Positions 1 to 17,859 of a DNA stretch of 24,622 nucleotides are shown here, piece after piece. A program made the translations under genes and the position numbers. The notes below the pieces were generated by a model. It ran no database searches, was not told where the DNA came from, and saw nothing but the letters and a program-made list of their open reading frames with translations. The stretch comes from a virus. The number at the start of each line of letters is the position of its first letter. The first letter of the stretch is position 1. The DNA is taken from IMG/VR virus record IMGVR_UViG_3300042458_000225, positions 1-24,622 of that record; one strand, written 5' to 3'.

Positions 1-12
1 AAAATCTATACG

Positions 13-53
13 GGTTCCGTTGTCCGTGTTTCAGGGATCTCGGACAACGAACC
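13..53 (+). repeat. Imperfect inverted repeat (GGTTCCGTTGTCCG / CGGACAACGAACC)
   Basis: The arm at 13-26 is complementary to the arm at 41-53 apart from one bulged C, leaving a 14-base loop. The right arm is the clearest non-coding copy of the GGACAACGAAC word that recurs at 362-372 (degenerate), 508-527 and, inside a gene, 6013-6024. Function unknown. Confidence 0.5.
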
Positions 54-140
54 ACCAACTCTCGTTCTCGGCCCTGATAAATTTGAGTGGCAGCTCCTGG
101 ATCAGTTACTCTTTCCCGCCTCCAGGTAGCTCTCGGTAAC

Positions 141-162
141 TCTCGTTTCTCGTTTGGCTATT
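141..162 (+). repeat. CTCGTTT-type dispersed repeat, copy A
   Basis: This 22-base element ends in TTTGGCTATT and matches the copy at 247-268 in 20 of 22 positions; the two differences are T/G changes after each CTCG. It lies in the non-coding leader. Confidence 0.6.
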
Positions 163-246
163 TGCTTTTCTTAAAGTTCACCATGCAGCGTCCTTCCCGC
201 AGGTAGCTCCTGTTTCTGTTAAGGAAAAAATACTAATGCTCGTGGT

Positions 247-268
247 TCTCGGTTCTCGGTTGGCTATT
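247..268 (+). repeat. CTCGGTT-type dispersed repeat, copy B
   Basis: The element contains two tandem TCTCGGT units followed by TGGCTATT, and matches copy A at 141-162 in 20 of 22 positions. Shorter relatives lie at 58-71, 334-345, 1245-1260 and 1939-1958, all in non-coding DNA of the left end. Confidence 0.6.
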
Positions 269-429
269 AGTTGTGTGTTAGACCATCAAAGTTCCTCAGG
301 CAGCCGAAGGCGTTTCACCTGTTTCCTTTCGAAGCTCTCGGTTGGGTTTGCGTTTTCCGTGGACAACGGAACACTAAAGTACAGGGAGCCTGAGCGTAGC
401 TCTGTTTCAAATATATTTTTTATTATCCA

Positions 430-464
430 TTGACTTTAATCCTGAGCTATCTTATCTAGATAGG
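430..464 (+). promoter_or_regulatory. Promoter with overlapping operator-like repeat, P1
   Basis: TTGACT (430-435) and TATCTA (453-458) are separated by 17 bases, a sigma70-type layout. TATCTTATC at 448-456, then TA, then GATAGGAG overlaps the -10 and matches the element at the 2122-2150 promoter in 16 of 19 positions. TATCTAGATA (453-462) is a perfect 10-base palindrome. It should drive the 536-1157 genes, and the palindrome suggests control by a dimeric repressor or activator. Confidence 0.55.
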
Positions 465-465
465 A

Positions 466-507
466 GCAGGGACACACGGTCTTGTAAATTGGCTAGCCAG
501 TCCCTGC
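466..507 (+). promoter_or_regulatory. 5' leader hairpin
   Basis: GCAGGGAC (466-473) pairs perfectly with GTCCCTGC (500-507). The 26-base loop contains the perfect palindrome TGGCTAGCCA (490-499, its last base before the right arm), so two folds are possible. It lies directly downstream of promoter P1 and about 28 bases before the first start codon. It could stabilise the mRNA, act as an attenuator or bind a protein. No T-run follows, so it is not a standard terminator. Confidence 0.55.
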
Positions 508-535
508 ACAACAACAACGAACAACGGAGAAACAA

Positions 536-688
536 ATGAAAGATGAACTACAAAAGTGGATGGATAAACACGTGATGGTGATGACTCTGTCTGATAATAA
601 GAAACAAGAAAAGAAAATAAAAAAAGCAATTGAGACTAAGGTGCGTGAATCGTTAACAGCGGAGAATAAAAATGCTAAAACAATTTAG
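536..688 (+). CDS. Small basic hypothetical protein (50 aa)
   Basis: This short gene was read directly. ATG at 536 is preceded by GGAGA (526-530) at good spacing, and the frame runs to TAG at 686-688. The 50-residue product starts MKDELQKWMDKHV and has a very Lys-rich middle (KKQEKKIKKAIETKVRE), probably helical. There is no membrane segment or known domain. It is the first gene after promoter P1, and its last 17 bases overlap the next gene, whose own ribosome site lies inside it, so the two are probably translationally coupled. I do not recognise the family; a small nucleic-acid-binding or host-takeover protein is possible. Confidence 0.6.
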   Translation: MKDELQKWMDKHVMVMTLSDNKKQEKKIKKAIETKVRESLTAENKNAKTI

Positions 689-851
689 GGTAATAATTCA
701 ATGGGGGCTGACAACGTTACCTGACAGCGAAGTTAAGACATATTACTTTGAAACCGAAAAGGAAATGGAATCGTTTCTCGATGGTGTTCATGAGGCTAAT
801 GGTTGGTTGGATTATGAGATCAAAGAAGAGGGACGCAATGTGGACAGATAA
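672..851 (+). CDS. Hypothetical protein (59 aa)
   Basis: ATG at 672 follows GGAG (661-664) by 7 bases, and the frame closes with TAA at 849-851. The 59-residue product begins MLKQFRVIIQWGLTTLP and continues with acidic, aromatic-rich sequence (YYFETEKEMESFLDGVHEA, then NGWLDYEI). The alternation suggests a compact alpha/beta fold, with no known motif. It overlaps both neighbours out of frame, typical of this cluster. I do not recognise the family. Confidence rests on the good ribosome site, the plausible composition and the overlap pattern. Confidence 0.6.
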   Translation: MLKQFRVIIQWGLTTLPDSEVKTYYFETEKEMESFLDGVHEANGWLDYEIKEEGRNVDR

Positions 852-1056
852 AAATACCATTGCCATCTTGTGGGGCGTAGAAGACGTTCAGACTCAGGCT
901 ACTATTCGCGGCCTTAAGCTTACAAAGAAAGAATGCCGGAAGGTTCTCGAAGCATGTTTGAATCAACATGATGCAACGTTAGGGCTGTCGTGGGACATTC
1001 TCGATCATCACATCATCGTACTGTTTGGTGACAGAATCGGGAAGGAGGCAGCGTGA
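838..1056 (+). CDS. Conserved phage hypothetical protein (72 aa)
   Basis: The frame stays open upstream to about 748, but ATG 838 is preferred: it has a purine-rich GAGGGA just upstream, overlaps the previous stop by 14 bases, and gives a sensible N-terminus (MWTDKNTIAILWGVEDVQ). The product has an acidic N-terminal third, then LTKKECRKVLEACLNQHDAT and GLSWDILDHHI. The sequence resembles a small family common in marine phages, in which a 'T.EECR.VL...  .HDA..G.NWD' pattern recurs. Its function is unknown to me. It overlaps the next gene as TGATG. Confidence 0.75.
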   Translation: MWTDKNTIAILWGVEDVQTQATIRGLKLTKKECRKVLEACLNQHDATLGLSWDILDHHIIVLFGDRIGKEAA

Positions 1057-1157
1057 TGCACGGAGTAGCGCTGCTCCTGGTGTTGATGTTAATCCATCCG
1101 AAGACCTGGGTGCCGTTGTTCGGGATCCTCGTTCTCTTCTTGATATCACTGTTCTAA
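1056..1157 (+). CDS. Tiny hydrophobic membrane protein (33 aa)
   Basis: ATG 1056 overlaps the preceding TGA as TGATG and has a strong Shine-Dalgarno, GGAGG, at 1044-1048 with 7-base spacing. The 33-residue product (MHGVALLLVLMLIHPKTW, then VPLFGILVLFLISLF) is almost wholly hydrophobic, with one HPK turn between two short hydrophobic stretches. It could be one tilted or two very short membrane segments. Possible roles are a membrane-stress peptide, a superinfection factor or a small holin-like peptide. No family was recognised. The strong ribosome site is the main evidence for it. Confidence 0.6.
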   Translation: MHGVALLLVLMLIHPKTWVPLFGILVLFLISLF

Positions 1158-1374
1158 TCTCTCGCTCGGCCTGGAGCCTGCAGCGTGGAAGCTGGTAATT
1201 AAACACTGAGCCGTCAGGCACGGAGAAGGTTGGTGTCAAGGTAAATCTCGTTTCTCGGTTTGAGATGAATTGTGTGATTCAACTTATAAGTTAAAACAGG
1301 GACGGGTGGCAGGTCATTGGAACTTCAACTTGGAAATCCTTGTGGCTTATAGAAAGACTTTTTTTGGTAAAAAT
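1158..1374. other. Non-coding spacer with repeat copies
   Basis: No gene is seen between TAA 1157 and the promoter before 1436. The spacer carries CTCG-type copies at 1158-1169 and 1245-1260 and an ACAGGGACGGG word near 1297. It does not fold convincingly as a tRNA. Confidence 0.5.
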
Positions 1375-1408
1375 TTCGTTTGACATTAAAAACGAATATA
1401 TTTATTTT
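1375..1408 (+). promoter_or_regulatory. Promoter P2 with inverted repeat
   Basis: A perfect -35, TTGACA (1380-1385), is followed after 17 bases by TATTTT (1403-1408). TTCGTTT (1375-1381) and AAACGAA (1390-1396) form a 7-base inverted repeat that overlaps the -35 and part of the spacer, a usual operator position. It drives the gene at 1436. The operator is unlike the one at P1 and P3, so this gene may be controlled separately. Confidence 0.6.
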
Positions 1409-1435
1409 TACATCAAACTAACAAAAGGAGAAAGT

Positions 1436-1933
1436 ATGGGCTTTGACTTATACGGAAACAACAAAGGAAATTCCACAGGCGAATATTTTAGAAACAATGT
1501 TTGGTGGTGGAGACGACTTGCTGACTATGTTTGTGAACATACCAAAGTGGTTGATGAGAAAGACTTTGAGAAATGGCAATACAATGACGGACATCAAGTT
1601 AGCAAAGAAGAGGCAGAACAAATTGCTAATCAACTTGAACACTTAATTAATTCAGGTCATGCTGAAAAGTATGCCGAACAAGTTAAGCAAGAACAAGAGA
1701 TTGCAGAGGCAACTAATAAAAAGGTTGAAGAACTTTTTGAAAAGATAAAACATAAGGTTAAGGTTGCAACTGGTAAAGAACTCGTTCCAAATGAATATCC
1801 AAAAGAATATAAAGATGAGTGGGATAGAACCTATCAACTGCGAGACAGCAGAGAAAGCTATCCATTCAACATTGCAAATGTAAAAGAGTTTATTGAATTT
1901 TGTAGAAACTCAAACGGATTTAGAATAAGTTAA
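1436..1933 (+). CDS. Conserved phage/bacterial protein of the 'GFDLYG' type
   Basis: ATG 1436 follows AAAAGGAG (1423-1430) and lies downstream of promoter P2. Upstream in-frame codons would run through the promoter, so they are rejected. The 165-residue protein opens with MGFDLYGNNKGN, then GEYFRNNVWWWRRLADYVC and YNDGHQVSKEEAEQIA. This is the signature of a widespread small family seen in phages and bacteria, to my knowledge without assigned function. Residues 65-115 form a charged helical stretch. The C-terminus (YPFNIANVKEFIEFCRNSNGF) is also a family feature. It stands alone between two non-coding regions with its own promoter, suggesting expression in a different phase from the head genes. 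Its Lys/Asn-rich codon use fits the AT-rich genome. Confidence 0.85.
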   Translation: MGFDLYGNNKGNSTGEYFRNNVWWWRRLADYVCEHTKVVDEKDFEKWQYNDGHQVSKEEAEQIANQLEHLINSGHAEKYAEQVKQEQEIAEATNKKVEELFEKIKHKVKVATGKELVPNEYPKEYKDEWDRTYQLRDSRESYPFNIANVKEFIEFCRNSNGFRIS

Positions 1934-2121
1934 AAATTAATCTCTCGCTCTCGCTCGGAATTTCTGGGCGAGGGCTTACCTCTAAACTAGAACTCACCAC
2001 AGGTCGCCGAGCAACTGTTTCGTTGTTCCTTGTTCGTTTAAATCAAACTTTTTTTACAACTTAAAAGCTAGAGTGTAATAAACACAGCAAAATTAAAATT
2101 AAAATATTTTTAGTTTAACCC
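1934..2121. other. Non-coding spacer with repeats
   Basis: No gene is seen. CTCGCTCTCGCTCGG (about 1944-1958) is the densest CTCG tract in the window. TTTCGTTGTTCC and TTGTTCGTTTA (2018-2040) are inverted-orientation copies of the ACAACGAAC word. CTCGC at 1945-1949 or 1951-1955 could pair with GCGAG at 1969-1973. The part after 2040 is plain AT-rich promoter-upstream sequence. Confidence 0.5.
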
Positions 2122-2164
2122 TTGAAATTTGATTAAAGATAAACTATCTTATCAAGATAAGATA
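2122..2164 (+). promoter_or_regulatory. Promoter P3 with perfect 9-bp operator palindrome
   Basis: TTGAAA (2122-2127), 17 bases, then TATCTT (2145-2150) form a good sigma70-type promoter. TATCTTATC (2145-2153), AA, GATAAGATA (2156-2164) is a perfect 9-base inverted repeat that starts on the -10. An extra half-site, TATCTTAT, lies at 2173-2180. The same element, slightly degenerate, covers the -10 at P1. It should drive 2212-2949. Confidence 0.65.
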
Positions 2165-2211
2165 AAATAAATTATCTTATATAACAACTAACAACAAAAA
2201 AAGGAAAACAA

Positions 2212-2553
2212 ATGACAGCACTAAAAAAAGTAAAGTCAAAAAGTTTAACCGACAAAGAAAATAAGTTAGGGTTAAATTTTGCTTTGATTAAATATCAAAT
2301 CAAAGACTACACAAAGAAATTAGATTTGTTAAAAGAGCAAATCTCAATTTTATTTGAACAGAAAAAACAAAATGTAATTTTTATCTTTGATGAAAAACAT
2401 CAAGGTTATATTCAGAAAATTACTAGAGTAATGAAAAGATTTGACACAACTAAATTCAAATCAGAAAACCCAGAGGTTTATGAAAAGTATTTGGTTGATT
2501 CTAATTATTTAGAGTTCAAACCTTTTATTGAGGAGTTAGAAAATGGCAAATAA
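2212..2553 (+). CDS. Hypothetical helical protein (113 aa)
   Basis: ATG 2212 follows AAGGA (2201-2205) by 6 bases and is the first gene after promoter P3. The product is Lys-rich and mostly helical: a basic N-terminus (MTALKKVKSKSLTDKENK), a heptad-like stretch at about residues 22-55 (IKDYTKKLDLLKEQISILFE), then a C-terminal part with KITRVMKRFDTTKFKSENP and EVYEKYLVDSNYLEFKPFI. The 'RFDTxKFKxxxPxxYEKY' pattern looks like a recurrent phage family, but I cannot name a function. Its 3' end overlaps the next gene by 11 bases, so the pair is probably co-translated. As a helical DNA-binding-like protein before TerL it is one weak candidate for the missing small terminase subunit. Confidence 0.7.
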   Translation: MTALKKVKSKSLTDKENKLGLNFALIKYQIKDYTKKLDLLKEQISILFEQKKQNVIFIFDEKHQGYIQKITRVMKRFDTTKFKSENPEVYEKYLVDSNYLEFKPFIEELENGK

Positions 2554-2782
2554 TCTAACTACAATCATACAAAGTAATTTAGCTAAGGTTAATAATAATA
2601 CTCAATTAACTGAAAGTCAGAAAAAAACTTTCAGAGAATTAGATTATCAATTAATGTTTAAGACACTTGAGAGCATTGTTGAGGAAACAATGTTAGAGTA
2701 TCAAGGAACAGAGAGTGTGGAGTTCTTGAGAAGAAAGTATATTGAGAAGTTCCAACATCTACTTGAGTTAATAAGTAAGTAA
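2543..2782 (+). CDS. Hypothetical protein (79 aa)
   Basis: ATG 2543 lies inside the previous gene, with GAGGAG (2530-2535) as ribosome site. The 79-residue product (MANNLTTIIQSNLAKVNNNT, then LTESQKKTFRELDYQLMF) is acidic and helical, with no membrane segment or metal site. The end, EFLRRKYIEKFQHLLELISK, is an amphipathic helix. It overlaps the next gene as TAATG. I recognise no family. Together with 2212 and 2782 it makes a three-gene operon ended by the hairpin at 2955-2980. Confidence 0.65.
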   Translation: MANNLTTIIQSNLAKVNNNTQLTESQKKTFRELDYQLMFKTLESIVEETMLEYQGTESVEFLRRKYIEKFQHLLELISK

Positions 2783-2949
2783 TGACTGATAAGAATAATC
2801 TTTGGATATATCGGTCAGATATTAATAACCCTAGTCGAGTGGCTAGGGTTAAACTAAAGACAGTCATTAGGTATCTTAATCGCAAGGTTGCGAGACGATA
2901 CACATACCACGCAAACAAGACTACAACTAAAGGTTGCTTTAGCAGGTAG
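2782..2949 (+). CDS. Small very basic protein (55 aa)
   Basis: ATG 2782 overlaps the preceding TAA as TAATG, and TAG lies at 2947-2949. The 55-residue product (MTDKNNLWIYRSDINNPSR, then VARVKLKTVIRYLNRKVARR, then YTYHANKTTTKGCFSR) is rich in Arg/Lys and has one Cys near the end. Composition and size suit a nucleic-acid-binding peptide. The coding sequence contains an 8-base inverted repeat, AACCCTAG/CTAGGGTT (2827-2834/2843-2850), that could form a hairpin in the mRNA. The gene is too short for most gene callers, but its coupling and strong charge bias support it. Confidence 0.65.
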   Translation: MTDKNNLWIYRSDINNPSRVARVKLKTVIRYLNRKVARRYTYHANKTTTKGCFSR

Positions 2950-2954
2950 CATCA

Positions 2955-2980
2955 ATAGCCCAGCTTAATAGCTGGGCTAT
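2955..2980 (+). terminator. Strong hairpin closing the left operon
   Basis: ATAGCCCAGCT (2955-2965) pairs perfectly with AGCTGGGCTAT (2970-2980) across a 4-base TAAT loop, an 11-bp GC-rich stem 6 bases after the 2782-2949 gene. What follows is CGTTCCGAGTTTAG, not a T-run, so it may be a weak or factor-assisted terminator or a processing/stability hairpin. Its place between operons supports an end-of-transcript role. Confidence 0.6.
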
Positions 2981-3130
2981 CGTTCCGAGTTTAGAGTTCC
3001 ATTTTCCAAAAACCTATATAAATCAATATCGAACCCCCCCACCCCCCGTTTTACAGTTCTATGTATCTGGGCGTCTTAGTCTGTAAGCAAGTTGCACACA
3101 CGCATAGGGGTGGTATATTCTACAATTCAT
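2981..3130. other. Spacer before terminase with C-tract
   Basis: No gene is seen. Seven Cs, an A and six Cs (3034-3047) form the longest C-tract in an AT-rich genome. The part after 3060 is of mixed composition (TCTGGGCGTC, GTTGCACACACGC). No consensus promoter was found, so terL transcription may come from read-through or a phage-specific promoter. A packaging site in this spacer is possible but not shown. Confidence 0.4.
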
Positions 3131-4603
3131 ATGGAAAACGAATTGTTGACGGGGGAGCAGCTTAGAGACAAAGTGGAGTCCCTTTGGTTGAAACACATAA
3201 AATTATGTCAGGATAATTTTTTATATTTTGTAAAAGAAATGTGGCCAGATATTATTTTTAAAAAAGAAAAAGATAAATCTAAGTGGGGCCACCATCAAGT
3301 TATTGCAAATGAATTTACTAAGATAGCTAAACAGAAAAAAGGGAGGCTCATTATCAATATGCCACCTAGACATACTAAATCTGAATTTGCTTCCGTTTAT
3401 TATCCTGCATGGATTATAGGGAAGTTTCCTAAGATGAAATTAATGCAAGTTTCTCACAACGCAGAACTAGCAGCACGATTTGGTAGTAAGGTTCGTAATC
3501 TAGTTGACTCACCACAGTATAAACAAATCTTTGGTGATGTTCGTTTAAGAGAAGATTCTAAAGCAAAGGGACGTTGGGAAACGAATCATGGTGGTGAATA
3601 CTATGCTGCCGGTGTCGGTGGTTCTATTACAGGTCGAGGTGCTGATTTATTAATTATAGATGATCCACATACAGAACAAGATATCTTAAGTGATACTGCT
3701 ATGGAAAAAGCATATGAGTGGTATTCATCAGGACCCCGTCAGCGTTTACAACCAGGTGGTTCCATCTTGCTAGTAATGACTAGATGGGCTGAAGATGATT
3801 TAACTGGACGACTTATTAAAACACAAACAGAAGTTAAAGCAGATAAATGGAAATTAATTTCTTTTCCAGCAATACTTCCAAGTGGTGAACCAGTATGGCC
3901 AGAGTATTGGAACCTAGAAGAATTAGAAAAAGTTAAAGCATCTATTTCAATTAGAAACTGGAATGCTCAATACATGCAGGATCCTGTTGCAGAAGAAGGT
4001 GCAATTATAAAAAGAGATTGGTGGAGACCATGGAAAAAAAGTATACCTGCTTTGCAACATGTTATTCAAAGTTATGATACTGCATTTAGTAAAAAAGAAA
4101 CTGCGGATTATTCTGCTATTACAACATGGGGAGTCTTTTACCCAGATGAAGTTACCCCTGCATTAATTCTATTAGATGCTGTAAAAGGAAGGTATGACTT
4201 TCCTGAACTTAAAGCAGTAGCTTTAGATCAATATAAATACTGGGAGCCAGAGTCCGTGGTTATTGAAGCAAAAGCCTCTGGATCTCCATTAATTCAAGAA
4301 TTACGTAGAATGGGTATACCTGTGATAGATTTTAGCCCTAGCAAAGGAAATGACAAGTTTACTAGGGTAAATGCCTGTGCCCCTGTTTTTGAATCTGGTT
4401 CCATCTGGTATCCCCATGGTGAGAGTTTTGCAGATGAAGTAATTGAGGAATGTGCAGCGTTTCCACATGGTTCTTATGATGACTATGTTGATAGCATGAC
4501 ACAAGCTGTGTTAAGATACCGACAGGGTAATTTCGTTTCTACATATTCCGACTACGTAGAACCTGAAAGAATACCACGTGAATATAAATACTACGAGGGA
4601 TAA
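3131..4603 (+). CDS. terL: Terminase large subunit (packaging ATPase/nuclease)
   Basis: This is the motor that cuts concatemeric DNA and pumps it into the prohead through the portal. In the 490-residue product the ATPase half has a Walker A-like MPPRHTKSE (about 77-85), Walker B LLIIDDPH (173-180) and the coupling TRW (217-219). The RNase H-like nuclease half has SYDTAFS (314-320), VIEAKASG (377-384) and SYDDYVDSMTQA (448-459), giving the expected acidic triad D316, E379, D451/D454. The Walker A has Thr where most relatives have Gly (PPRHGKSE). The frame can be opened 13 codons upstream from a TTG at 3092, but ATG 3131 gives the usual N-terminus. Neither start has a good Shine-Dalgarno. The last codons (GAGGGA) supply the ribosome site of the next gene. 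No small subunit is recognisable in the window. Confidence 0.95.
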   Translation: MENELLTGEQLRDKVESLWLKHIKLCQDNFLYFVKEMWPDIIFKKEKDKSKWGHHQVIANEFTKIAKQKKGRLIINMPPRHTKSEFASVYYPAWIIGKFPKMKLMQVSHNAELAARFGSKVRNLVDSPQYKQIFGDVRLREDSKAKGRWETNHGGEYYAAGVGGSITGRGADLLIIDDPHTEQDILSDTAMEKAYEWYSSGPRQRLQPGGSILLVMTRWAEDDLTGRLIKTQTEVKADKWKLISFPAILPSGEPVWPEYWNLEELEKVKASISIRNWNAQYMQDPVAEEGAIIKRDWWRPWKKSIPALQHVIQSYDTAFSKKETADYSAITTWGVFYPDEVTPALILLDAVKGRYDFPELKAVALDQYKYWEPESVVIEAKASGSPLIQELRRMGIPVIDFSPSKGNDKFTRVNACAPVFESGSIWYPHGESFADEVIEECAAFPHGSYDDYVDSMTQAVLRYRQGNFVSTYSDYVEPERIPREYKYYEG

Positions 4604-11122: not shown

Positions 11123-11231
11123 AAGATTTGGTCCACCACCATTAAAAGGACCTGCTTCTCAAGGACTAAGGTTAAAAAAACTTAAATTAAAAAAATCTAA
11201 ATTAAAAAAACTCAATGTTAGAAAAAAGTAA
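11112..11231 (+). CDS. Tiny basic GPPPLKGP protein (39 aa) overlapping portal and endonuclease genes
   Basis: GTG 11112 has AGAGG (11102-11106) 5 bases upstream and lies inside the portal gene's last codons, in another frame. TAA is at 11229-11231, inside the endonuclease gene that starts at 11215. The 39 residues begin MIGKRFGPPPLKGPASQGL (GTG read as Met) and end in three tandem copies of LKK(L/S)(K/N). The FGPPPLKGPxSQG motif recurs in small marine-phage proteins beside portal genes as I recall them, which together with the ribosome site makes the call credible. The Lys-rich repeats come from a 15-base tandem repeat. Function unknown; a DNA- or portal-binding peptide is possible. Confidence 0.7.
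   Translation: MIGKRFGPPPLKGPASQGLRLKKLKLKKSKLKKLNVRKK
11172..11216 (+). repeat. 15-bp tandem repeat, three copies
   Basis: TTAAAAAAACTTAAA, TTAAAAAAATCTAAA and TTAAAAAAACTCAAT lie head to tail (11172-11186, 11187-11201, 11202-11216). They encode LKKLK, LKKSK and LKKLN of the 39-residue protein; the third copy also carries the start of the endonuclease gene. A7 runs make slippage likely, so copy number may vary between relatives. Confidence 0.75.
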
Positions 11232-11628
11232 TTCTTTAGAGTTGTTTAAATTTAAAGAAAAAGAAAGAGTAAGAAAACAAATTTATTATAAAAATAATAC
11301 AAAGCTTATAAGCGAAAGAATAGCTAAGTATAATAAATTAAATCCTGAAAAGAGAAAATTAGTTGTAAAGAAATCTTGGATAAAATGTAAATATGGAATT
11401 GTTTATGAAGATTATTTATCCATGCATCGTGAACAAGAATATAGATGTAAAATTTGTAAAAGACATGCTGATGAGTTTAAAAAAAAATTAGTAGTAGATC
11501 ATGATCATAAAACCGGTAAAGTTAGAGCTTTATTATGCACTAATTGCAATTCACAATTACATGTGTTAGAAAATAAAGAGCTATACGATAAGTATATGAA
11601 TTATTTAAATAGTTATAAAGAGGAGTAA
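11215..11628 (+). CDS. Endonuclease VII/HNH-type nuclease (137 aa)
   Basis: This looks like a member of the recombination endonuclease VII family, which in T4 resolves branched DNA during packaging and elsewhere also occurs as free-standing homing endonucleases. Visible signature: YEDYLSMHREQEYRCKIC with C78 and C81, VVDHDHKTGKVRALLCTNCN with D95, H96, D97, H98 and the second zinc pair C108 and C111, then N112. The N-terminal 60 residues are Lys/Arg-rich and helical. There is no clear ribosome site. The gene is among the most AT-rich here, starts inside the 39-residue gene and ends overlapping the holin as TAATG. Position and composition fit a mobile gene inserted next to the portal, though a role in packaging is equally compatible. 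Confidence 0.85.
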   Translation: MLEKSNSLELFKFKEKERVRKQIYYKNNTKLISERIAKYNKLNPEKRKLVVKKSWIKCKYGIVYEDYLSMHREQEYRCKICKRHADEFKKKLVVDHDHKTGKVRALLCTNCNSQLHVLENKELYDKYMNYLNSYKEE

Positions 11629-12056
11629 TGTTACCTATGTTAAATGCAATTGCACCACTAGCTAAAATACTTTTTAATACAATTGAAAAGTCTGTTCCAG
11701 ATAAGGATTTACAAGCTAAATTAAAAGCAGATTTACAAACTCAGTTATTACAATCTAATACAGCAGAATTACAAGCTGCAGCAAAGATAGTTGAAGCTGA
11801 AGCAAAAGCTGGTTGGTTTTCAGCAAGTTGGAGACCTTTATTAATGTATGTATTAATTTTTATATTAATATGGAATTATGTATTAGGACCTGTTATCTTA
11901 TTTTTCTTTAAAGCTTCTATAACTATTACTCTTCCAGGAGACGTATGGACCCTTTTGCAAATTGGTCTGGGAGGTTACGTTGTGGGACGCAGCGCGGAAT
12001 CAGTTGCACGAACAATGGCTAATAAACCACAACCAAAAGAGCAAGAAAACGGGTAG
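11628..12056 (+). CDS. GTA-type 3TM holin-like protein (142 aa)
   Basis: ATG 11628 overlaps the previous stop; GAGGAG (11620-11625) is the ribosome site. Residues 1-60 form an amphipathic helical region (KLKADLQTQLLQSNTAELQA). AGWFSASWRPLLMYVLIFIL begins at residue 61, with a long membrane segment at about 71-95 and a second at 107-122 (LLQIGLGGYVVGRSAES). The AGWFxxSWRPL motif before the membrane segment is typical of the family I know as GTA_holin_3TM, used to release gene transfer agents and phages. It probably forms inner-membrane lesions at lysis. The last third, from about 11937, changes to more GC-rich codons. It is followed at once by a small lipoprotein gene. Confidence 0.8.
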   Translation: MLPMLNAIAPLAKILFNTIEKSVPDKDLQAKLKADLQTQLLQSNTAELQAAAKIVEAEAKAGWFSASWRPLLMYVLIFILIWNYVLGPVILFFFKASITITLPGDVWTLLQIGLGGYVVGRSAESVARTMANKPQPKEQENG

Positions 12057-12356: not shown

Positions 12357-12580
12357 TAGATTACGAAAGCTATAAATACATAAGAAATCAAATAAATAAG
12401 TCAGTAGAACGTTTAAAAGAAGCTCTAGTGTACAGTGTAGACAAATGGGAAGACATCTTATATATTAGAGGAAAAATTCAGGGCCTTGAAACCCTGCTAC
12501 AGGATCTCACTGACCTGCAGAAAAAACAGGAGCTATTTGATGACGACAAAGACACCAAGTCTGGAAGTACCGAAACATAA
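12353..12580 (+). CDS. Hypothetical helical protein (75 aa)
   Basis: ATG 12353 overlaps the previous TGA. The product is a probable long helix pair: MIDYESYKYIRNQINKSVER, LKEALVYSVDKWEDILYIRG, then IQGLETLLQDLTDLQKKQEL and a short acidic tail. Heptad-like leucines suggest a coiled coil or oligomer. From about 12481 the codons are noticeably more GC-rich, and the last 41 bases overlap the GroES-like gene in another frame. Function unknown. Small helical proteins between portal and scaffold are usual in such phages and may assist head assembly. Confidence 0.65.
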   Translation: MIDYESYKYIRNQINKSVERLKEALVYSVDKWEDILYIRGKIQGLETLLQDLTDLQKKQELFDDDKDTKSGSTET

Positions 12581-12995
12581 AGAAGCACTTCTAGATTCCT
12601 ACAAAGAAAAAGAAGTTAAAGAAGAACCTTTAACTCCAGAAAATTTTCAAGAATCAGCACTAGATCAATTACCTAATCCAACAGGATATAGAATATTAGT
12701 TCTAATGCATGCTGGTGCTAGAAAAACAAAGGGCGGCATTCATCTCACAGAAAATACATTAGAAACAATACAGATGACATCTGTTTGTGGCTACGTATTA
12801 AAAATGGGAGATCTTTGCTATAAAGACGAAAAAAAGTTTCCGAATGGACCATGGTGTAAACCAAAAGAGTGGGTTATGTTTGGTCGATACGCGGGAGCAC
12901 GATTCAAAATAGAGGGAGGAGAAATCAGAATTCTTAACGATGATGAAATCATTAGTACAATTAAGAATCCTGAATCTATTTTGCAACTGTACTAA
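12540..12995 (+). CDS. GroES-like co-chaperonin (151 aa)
   Basis: ATG 12540 has AGGAG (12528-12532) 7 bases upstream. The frame stays open to 12486, but that start has no site and adds unrelated residues. After a 45-residue charged N-terminus the protein has a Cpn10-like pattern: LPNPTGYRILVLMHAGARKT, GGIHLTENTLE, GYVLKMGDLCYKDEKKFPNG, VMFGRYAGARFKIEGGEIRI and LNDDEIISTI. The GGI(I/H)L...(mobile loop) and 'GRYAGARF' segments are the recognisable parts. Phage GroES homologues (T4 gp31 type) redirect host GroEL to fold the capsid protein, which fits a place just before scaffold and capsid. The 45-residue extension and the CYKDEKKFPNGPWCK insert with two Cys are unlike bacterial GroES. Confidence 0.8.
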   Translation: MTTKTPSLEVPKHKEALLDSYKEKEVKEEPLTPENFQESALDQLPNPTGYRILVLMHAGARKTKGGIHLTENTLETIQMTSVCGYVLKMGDLCYKDEKKFPNGPWCKPKEWVMFGRYAGARFKIEGGEIRILNDDEIISTIKNPESILQLY

Positions 12996-17457: not shown

Positions 17458-17859
17458 ATGGAAAAAAATAATTTATTAGTTCACAAACATTTAATTGTTC
17501 GTGCTGAAGTTTATCGTCCACCCATGGACGAGGAGTTTCTTAGGCGATGGTTAAATGACTTCATTACAGAAATTGGAATGAAAGTTATGATGGGTCCTTA
17601 TGTTCAATATTCTAATATGGTTGGCAATCGTGGTATTACTGGTGCTGCTATTATAGAAACATCACATATTGTTATGCACGTATGGGACGAAGTACATCCT
17701 GCATTAATGCAATTTGATGTATATAGTTGTGGAGAATTTGATCCAGAAACTATATGTAATAAAATAGAAAAAGATTTCACAGTTCACAAAATTGAATACA
17801 AATTCCTTGATAGAGAGCATGATTTAAAGGAAATATTCAAATTGAAAGTAGCAGAATAG
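17458..17859 (+). CDS. speD: SpeD/AdoMet decarboxylase-like pyruvoyl protein (133 aa)
   Basis: The bacterial and archaeal S-adenosylmethionine decarboxylases make decarboxylated AdoMet for spermidine synthesis and self-cleave before a Ser to create a pyruvoyl cofactor. Here GAAIIETSHIVMHVWDE carries S69, H74 at the expected +5, and DVYSCGEFDPETI carries the catalytic Cys91, all in the family order. The residue before S69 is Thr, not the usual Glu, and the S-to-C gap is two residues longer than in short SpeD proteins. Size matches the class. ATG 17458 has no clear ribosome site. Phage speD genes are known from marine phages, and some SpeD homologues are reported to act on other amino acids, so the substrate should be left open. 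It probably tunes host polyamines during infection. Confidence 0.8.
   Translation: MEKNNLLVHKHLIVRAEVYRPPMDEEFLRRWLNDFITEIGMKVMMGPYVQYSNMVGNRGITGAAIIETSHIVMHVWDEVHPALMQFDVYSCGEFDPETICNKIEKDFTVHKIEYKFLDREHDLKEIFKLKVAE

Follow-up and report, generated by a model that had tools for sequence, protein, structure and literature searches.

Same-facing arrays of short words in the terminase leader of HTVC023P-type pelagiphages point to an undescribed control signal

The window analysed here is the whole of a 24.6-kb virus contig (24,622 nucleotides (nt); IMG/VR record IMGVR_UViG_3300042458_000225), and our subject is a set of short repeated words in its leader, the region between the terminase genes terS and terL. 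By its sequence, the window is a member of the HTVC023P-type pelagiphage group: at 75.8% identity over 97%, its terL matches that of Pelagibacter phage HTVC023P, and the two share a conserved leader gene, here called gene X (1436-1933, + strand, 165 amino acids), which is about 50% identical to HTVC023P gp23 and was used for aligning relatives. The leader runs in the order nuclease, array, promoter, small genes, array, promoter, gene X, array, promoter, two genes and terL, most promoters outside the window having been read by eye. Positions 1-129 (+) hold the 3′ end of a VRR-NUC/Hjc-like nuclease gene (stop 127-129), whose 5′ part lies beyond the contig; the open frame reads KIYTGSVVRVSGISDNEPPTLVLG...FPASR and then the stop, its C-terminus is the same as that of complete genes in the relatives L158 and L152, and the homologue in L076 matches PHROG 2165 at 7e-16. 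Each of the three arrays, named A to C, is followed by a promoter-like site on the + strand. TTGACT...TATCTT (430-458) lies ~90 nt after array A; it was read from the sequence, is kept in L152 and L158, and falls below the cut-off of our generic scan. That scan found TTGACA-17-TATTTT (10/12) at 1380-1408, after array B, and TTGAAA-17-TATCTT at 2122-2150, after array C.

The initial annotation had described a degenerate CTCG(G/T)TT family, and copies do lie at or near every place that it listed (60-71, 131-155, 247-261, 336-343, 1160-1169, 1246-1260 and 1943-1956). Three leader stretches were tested (1-535, 1158-1435 and 1934-2211); in them, CTCG[GT]TT occurs seven times on the + strand and never on the - strand, against a mean of 0.29 in 2,000 dinucleotide shuffles, none of which reached seven. 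For CTCG[GTC]T the counts are 12 and 0, with a shuffle mean of 1.09 and 0/2,000 shuffles reaching 12. The other 22.5 kb of the window hold two copies of CTCG[GT]TT, one per strand. Array A comprises TCTCGGTAACTCTCGTTTCTCGTTT at 131-155, CTCGTGGTTCTCGGTTCTCGGT(T) at 240-261, which is identical in L152 and L158, and TCTCGGTT at 336-343. Array B consists of TCTCGCTCGG at 1160-1169, immediately 3′ of a membrane-peptide-like frame of 33 amino acids (1056-1157), and TCTCGTTTCTCGGTT at 1246-1260. Array C, TCTCGCTCTCGCTCGGA at 1943-1959, stands just past the gene X stop, and all three arrays are on the + strand. Two copies match at 20 of 22 positions (141-162 vs 247-268), and the DNA that carries the words is unlike the phage in composition, as first noted (G+C 0.50 at 10-410 vs 0.34 downstream of the terL start). 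The claim that almost all copies are non-coding has to be amended for those at 14-25, 41-52 and 58-71. Because positions 1-129 are the nuclease 3′ end, the first words are coding, two of ACAACGAAC type among them, and so is TCTCGTTCTCG (60-70, +), which is conserved in L120, L152 and L158. Between the window and L152, the words of array region A are 88% identical and the rest 63%, a difference somewhat biased upward because only one of the compared sequences served to define the words.

The same organization recurs in relatives, which were gathered in two sets, one from an unbiased tally of enriched 6-mers within the 6 kb preceding terL, the other of 80 contigs centred on gene X. In the window as in many relatives, one over-represented word dominates the leader, on the terL strand only and between terS and terL. 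Most of these relatives spell it CTCGTT; some have CCCGTT, either by itself or together with CTCGTT, others CCCACG and a few CCTCGC. In near-complete genomes (56-61 kb), it is confined to one stretch of ~4 kb, which holds 22/24, 22/22 and 15/16 of the same-strand CTCGTT copies in G001, G010 and G015, and all same-strand CCCACG copies in G016 (15/15) and G006 (11/11). Tandem CTCGTT pairs were absent from the CCCACG genome G006, and tandem CCCACG pairs from the CTCGTT genomes searched. Over 26 non-redundant leaders, CTCGTT was seen 332 times and its reverse complement 16 times, vs expectations of 14.7 and 26.9. With these tallies, the words are neither at chance level nor unique to the window contig. 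Neighbouring copies stand head to tail, mostly 6, 7 or 8 nt apart (26, 42 and 20 cases), and beyond 1-2 nt around the word there is no information, neighbouring words aside.

The spelling of the word follows phage lineage. In a terL phylogeny of 51 sequences, the CCCACG leaders (L067, L083 and others) group in a single clade (support 100/99) whose sister is a CTCGTT clade (L193, L203, L209), and all word states together require 10 changes vs 27.9 with shuffled labels. As only 0-2 CTCGTT are left per leader in the CCCACG clade, the copies were respelled together. The word is thus respelled in concert between lineages, as CTCGTT, CCCGTT, CCCACG or CCTCGC. A miniature mobile repeat, one of the functions first offered, is disfavoured by this lineage-dependent spelling, by the fixed positions at gene boundaries and by the lack of any conserved unit longer than 6-7 nt. 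Nor do the words resemble repetitive extragenic palindromes, which are palindromic units longer than the word and dispersed over the genome; here, the copies are confined to one region.

After gene X, most relatives have the stop codon, a stable hairpin and, directly after it, the lineage word (in L200 GGCGAGGGCTAACACCCTCGCC then CCACGCCCACGCCCACG; in L193 CGGCACGGTCAAACCGTGCCG then TCTCGTTTCTCGTTT), with the next promoter ~90-170 nt beyond the array. Conserved coding matches cover 45-53% of the span, and outside them lie 84% of CTCGTT (268/319) and 97% of CCCACG copies (100/103). We do not see intrinsic terminators, made of a hairpin and a U tract: what follows the gene X hairpin is a word array and no U tract, and terminator-like sites in a generic scan were near chance level. 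The position behind a 3′ hairpin and before the next promoter is the usual place of Rho-dependent ends. Together with the C-rich words and their strand specificity, this could suggest generic Rho loading (rut) sites. However, rut sites are C-rich and G-poor and need no exact word, whereas the arrays repeat an exact, G-containing word in flanks that lack a C-over-G bubble (C 0.235 and G 0.240 with the words removed). In the 26 leaders, words with the G substituted are depleted (CTCATT 0.65, CTCCTT 0.34 and CTCTTT 0.64 of expectation) and the enriched neighbours are CCCGTT, CTCGGT, CTCGCT and CTCGTA/C/G. The depleted G-less neighbours and the equal C and G of the flanks speak against a loose C-rich signal, and the GCTTGNN form described next is not C-rich; generic Rho loading is thus very improbable.

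A more distant pelagiphage clade carries arrays of another form. HTVC027P and 80 contigs with a homologue of HTVC027P gp33 have leader GCTTGNN repeats at an exact 7-nt period: among neighbour spacings below 40 nt, 634 are exactly 7 nt. The five core positions of the unit are 95-99% fixed and the other two near random (453 units from 47 non-redundant loci, counting those that lie between two exact units). Over 80 loci, ~1,100 tandem pairs are on the terL strand and 0 on the opposite one (per-locus counts summed by hand), although gp33, which lies between the arrays, is transcribed opposite to terL; array direction therefore follows the genome and not the local gene. One contig of 62,993 bases (IMGVR_UViG_3300046171_000113; L317, L352) has the gp33 leader segment near both ends, in versions of 87% and 81%, and is possibly a chimeric assembly. 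GCTTGNN arrays are also frequent in some bacterial chromosomes, among them those of Pseudomonas, Halopseudomonas, Hymenobacter and Flavitalea (L358-L437, G020-G033). In 14 genomes picked for holding an array, there are 10-431 triple units per genome vs 0-1 for the reversed pattern. Among the gene boundaries at which bacterial arrays stand, convergent outnumber divergent ones 21 to 1. These bacterial arrays share with the HTVC027P type the heptad, the mixed NN and the position at gene ends, but unlike the phage arrays they often form inverted pairs (a CAAGC array, 20-100 nt, a GCTTG array) and have no single direction.

Our favoured reading, held tentatively and at less than even odds, is that the words are sequence-specific sites at the gene boundaries of the terS-terL leader that act on polymerase bound for terL, in termination or antitermination. 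It builds on what is observed, namely the arrays, their specificity, direction, confinement and position, and their concerted turnover, and we prefer it because it accounts together for the fixed direction and for the location at hairpins and gene boundaries. Among the functions proposed in the initial annotation, regulator or recognition sites fit the evidence best. The reading further supposes that the arrays are transcribed and that a factor for them exists. Each unit would consist of a promoter, one or more small genes, usually a stable hairpin, the word array and the next promoter. The words, in nascent RNA or in the exposed non-template strand, would recruit the factor, which would decide between a stop at the hairpin and passage to terL and the late genes, much as at nut sites. 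Site and factor would change together, giving the lineage-private spelling; the whole-leader switch from CTCGTT to CCCACG between sister clades is as expected for a co-evolving site and reader. The flexible head-to-tail spacing of 6-8 nt suits a single-stranded target, and the better conservation of the words, the strand bias and the word specificity also count for transcriptional control. In lambdoid phages, the nut sites of N-dependent antitermination are directional leader elements by a hairpin, of phage-private specificity and ahead of later genes. The arrays resemble them in direction, in standing beside a hairpin and in private specificity, but differ in their many tandem copies, and no boxA/boxB arrangement was recognised. 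No boxB-like arrangement was seen by eye, no N-like protein was identified and no antiterminator appeared among the profile matches, a comparison that covered the leader proteins.

Several observations weigh against control of transcription towards terL. In the window, array C is not 3′ of a hairpin; it forms the 5′ arm of one (1947-1975, +, 13 predicted pairs, z-score of the segment's minimum free energy -3.9). In predicted RNA folds, the words are a mixture of paired and unpaired and not consistently unpaired. In HTVC027P-type phages, an RNA made in the terL direction would have to traverse an oppositely transcribed gene. Several units have their own promoter-like site, so that through-transcription is not required. 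HTVC023P and its nearest kin have none of the words CTCGTT, CCCGTT, CCCACG and CCTCGC. Finally, no reader protein emerged from leader-protein profile matches, from RHH_1 and Arc profiles or from presence and absence across word-bearing genomes. A leader protein of ~111 amino acids fitted the near-complete genomes, but neither the window nor other contigs with the words encode it, and it was dropped as a candidate.

A direction that follows the genome fits transcription control towards terL and equally a process at the DNA level, such as packaging. All conserved genes of the CTCGTT and CCCACG leaders run with terL (311/311 matches), so these leaders cannot separate the two roles. The arrays might be a directional DNA element, for recognition by terminase (pac), for replication start or as a polar barrier to forks or transcription, bound by a phage protein on double- or single-stranded DNA. 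Such an element is possible, if on balance unlikely, and packaging or replication is a close rival to the transcription reading. The arrays occupy a single 4-kb stretch between terS and terL, their direction tracks the genome and not the local gene, the exact 7-nt period of GCTTGNN resembles the 7-bp omega/parS sites (PMC9499535), and lineage-private spelling would suit packaging specificity. However, the copies spread over ~3 kb, with several arrays between genes and behind hairpins, and a double-strand reader would meet adjoining words, spaced by 6, 7 or 8 nt, at varying angles. Contig ends, taken as a proxy for physical ends of the DNA, do not peak sharply at the leader, and a repeated word upstream of terS makes a better pac candidate. 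The change in GC skew that a replication origin might show was not found: cumulative skew climbs all along the window without changing direction.

Transcriptional control also has to be set against single-stranded RNA sites that an RNA-binding protein of the host or the phage (cold-shock type, S1 or Csr-like) would bind and that would serve as stability elements in 3′ untranslated regions (UTRs) or as a sponge. The words are pyrimidine-rich, 6-7 nt long and in tandem, many stand behind hairpins as in CsrB-like RNAs, and there is a precedent in the cold-shock protein CspB, reported to bind heptamer direct repeats with one protein per heptamer (PMC4679880). Yet a conserved host protein would not favour switching of the word between lineages, and the GCTTGNN direction tracks terL and not the local transcript. 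The predicted pairing is mixed, which led us to reject uniformly unpaired words as in a CsrB-like sponge. We regard RNA-protein sites of this kind as improbable.

It is also conceivable that the words have no reader and are neutral or selfish short repeats that arise by polymerase slippage and are carried about by recombination. In favour of this, heptanucleotides are cited as the most frequent class of such repeats in most prokaryotes, with slippage given as the cause (PMC4679880), and leader cassettes vary among close relatives. Copying, however, would not be expected to yield five fixed and two near-random positions in GCTTGNN, nor do one spelling in dispersed copies across 3 kb, words better conserved than their surroundings and a pattern that is strand-specific in 22/26 and confined in every genome read fit it well. 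Homology breakpoints lie within 20 nt of a word in 12.2% of cases vs 9.2% at random; this small excess lends the recombination hot spot first proposed weak support at most, and we rejected the words as recombination joints. Neutral spread is distinctly improbable.

Two described systems come close in form to the arrays. TAACTGA heptamer direct repeats of marine Beggiatoaceae, Cyanobacteria and Bacteroidetes likewise consist of one exact short word in direct repeat between genes; heptamers resembling it are rare, and a nucleic-acid-binding protein has been proposed as their reader (PMC4679880). They keep one spelling across distant bacteria and lie mostly a few nt upstream of start codons, whereas the phage words are different, lie 3′ of genes and are respelled by lineage, and so do not belong to this type. 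The heptads of the omega/parS system on plasmid pSM19035, which form runs of 7-10 adjoining non-palindromic 7-bp sites (PMC9499535), are comparable to the GCTTGNN arrays at 7-nt period. However, these sites read WATCACW, occur in mixed orientations, overlap promoters and are read by a ribbon-helix-helix protein, whereas the phage arrays have one orientation and other words. The RHH_1 and Arc profiles gave one sub-threshold match in 12 genomes, a search in which remote ribbon-helix-helix proteins could be missed, and we do not place the arrays with omega/parS.

The second family of the initial annotation, the ACAACG-type (ACAACGAAC) words, is present above chance (ACAACG[AG] in the leader stretches: 4 on the + and 2 on the - strand, shuffle mean 0.14) but does not form one coherent family. 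Within the part that encodes the nuclease's tail, a hairpin is predicted (12-52, +, ~13 pairs, RNA fold -19.5 kcal/mol) whose arms are formed by GTTCCGTTGTCC and GGACAACGAAC, the copies at 14-25 and 41-52; L152 keeps only its loop-distal 7 pairs. The copy at 361-372 makes up one half of a small local hairpin, and that at 510-530 belongs to the 5′ UTR of the gene at 536. As the copies are coding, hairpin arms or 5′ UTR, we rejected a second word family.

Other repeats and sites were noted in these leaders. HTVC023P has leader repeats of its own (L168 12373-12565 and 14888-15304), with CTTGAGAATACATACCGAAAATTTTTTG in tandem and TTGAGAATAACAACGAAA three times. Upstream of terS, a second, lineage-dependent word is repeated: ACTAGGAAAA in HTVC023P (L168 ~11700-11830), CTCCTAG in L076 (1260-1440) and, in both orientations, GTGACAAG in L024 (2760-2990). 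These are candidate terminase or operator sites. Operator-like dyads, TATCTTATCTAGATAGGA (448-465) and TATCTTATCAAGATAAGATA (2147-2164, also present in L024), overlap the -10 regions of two leader promoters of the window. Leader promoters of relatives (L024 4629 and 5147, L034, L065, L076 3367) have, by eye, a common extended form near TTGACA-N3-TCCCAYGA-TCTTATATA, which suggests one shared regulator. Very short membrane-peptide-like frames adjoin arrays (window 1056-1157, L024 4787-4861, L050 6849-6914), and some words are codons of such frames, for example CTCGTT read as Leu-Val. Elsewhere in the window we read, by eye, an HNH-type endonuclease (11215-11628), a GroES-like co-chaperonin (12486-12995) and an S-adenosylmethionine-decarboxylase-like protein (17458-17859). 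An Rfam covariance-model scan of positions 1-3200 gave no match at E up to 1, and a transfer RNA scan found nothing.

In open-access papers, we found no description of the words or of leader repeats in the HTVC023P-type group. The arrays may, as a tentative and less than even prospect, represent a new class of directional cis code, in which private 5-7-nt words, set head to tail in the terL direction, are respelled in concert with a putative phage-encoded reader. Their lineage-specific spelling is a natural experiment: the reader should be a phage protein that switches specificity with the word. As the GCTTGNN form occurs in HTVC027P, a phage of the cultured strain HTCC1062, the arrays are experimentally accessible now, and they offer a simple marker for sorting uncultured contigs of the HTVC023P-type group. 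Same-facing word arrays at conserved gene boundaries suggest that this very abundant ocean phage group has a control signal not described before.

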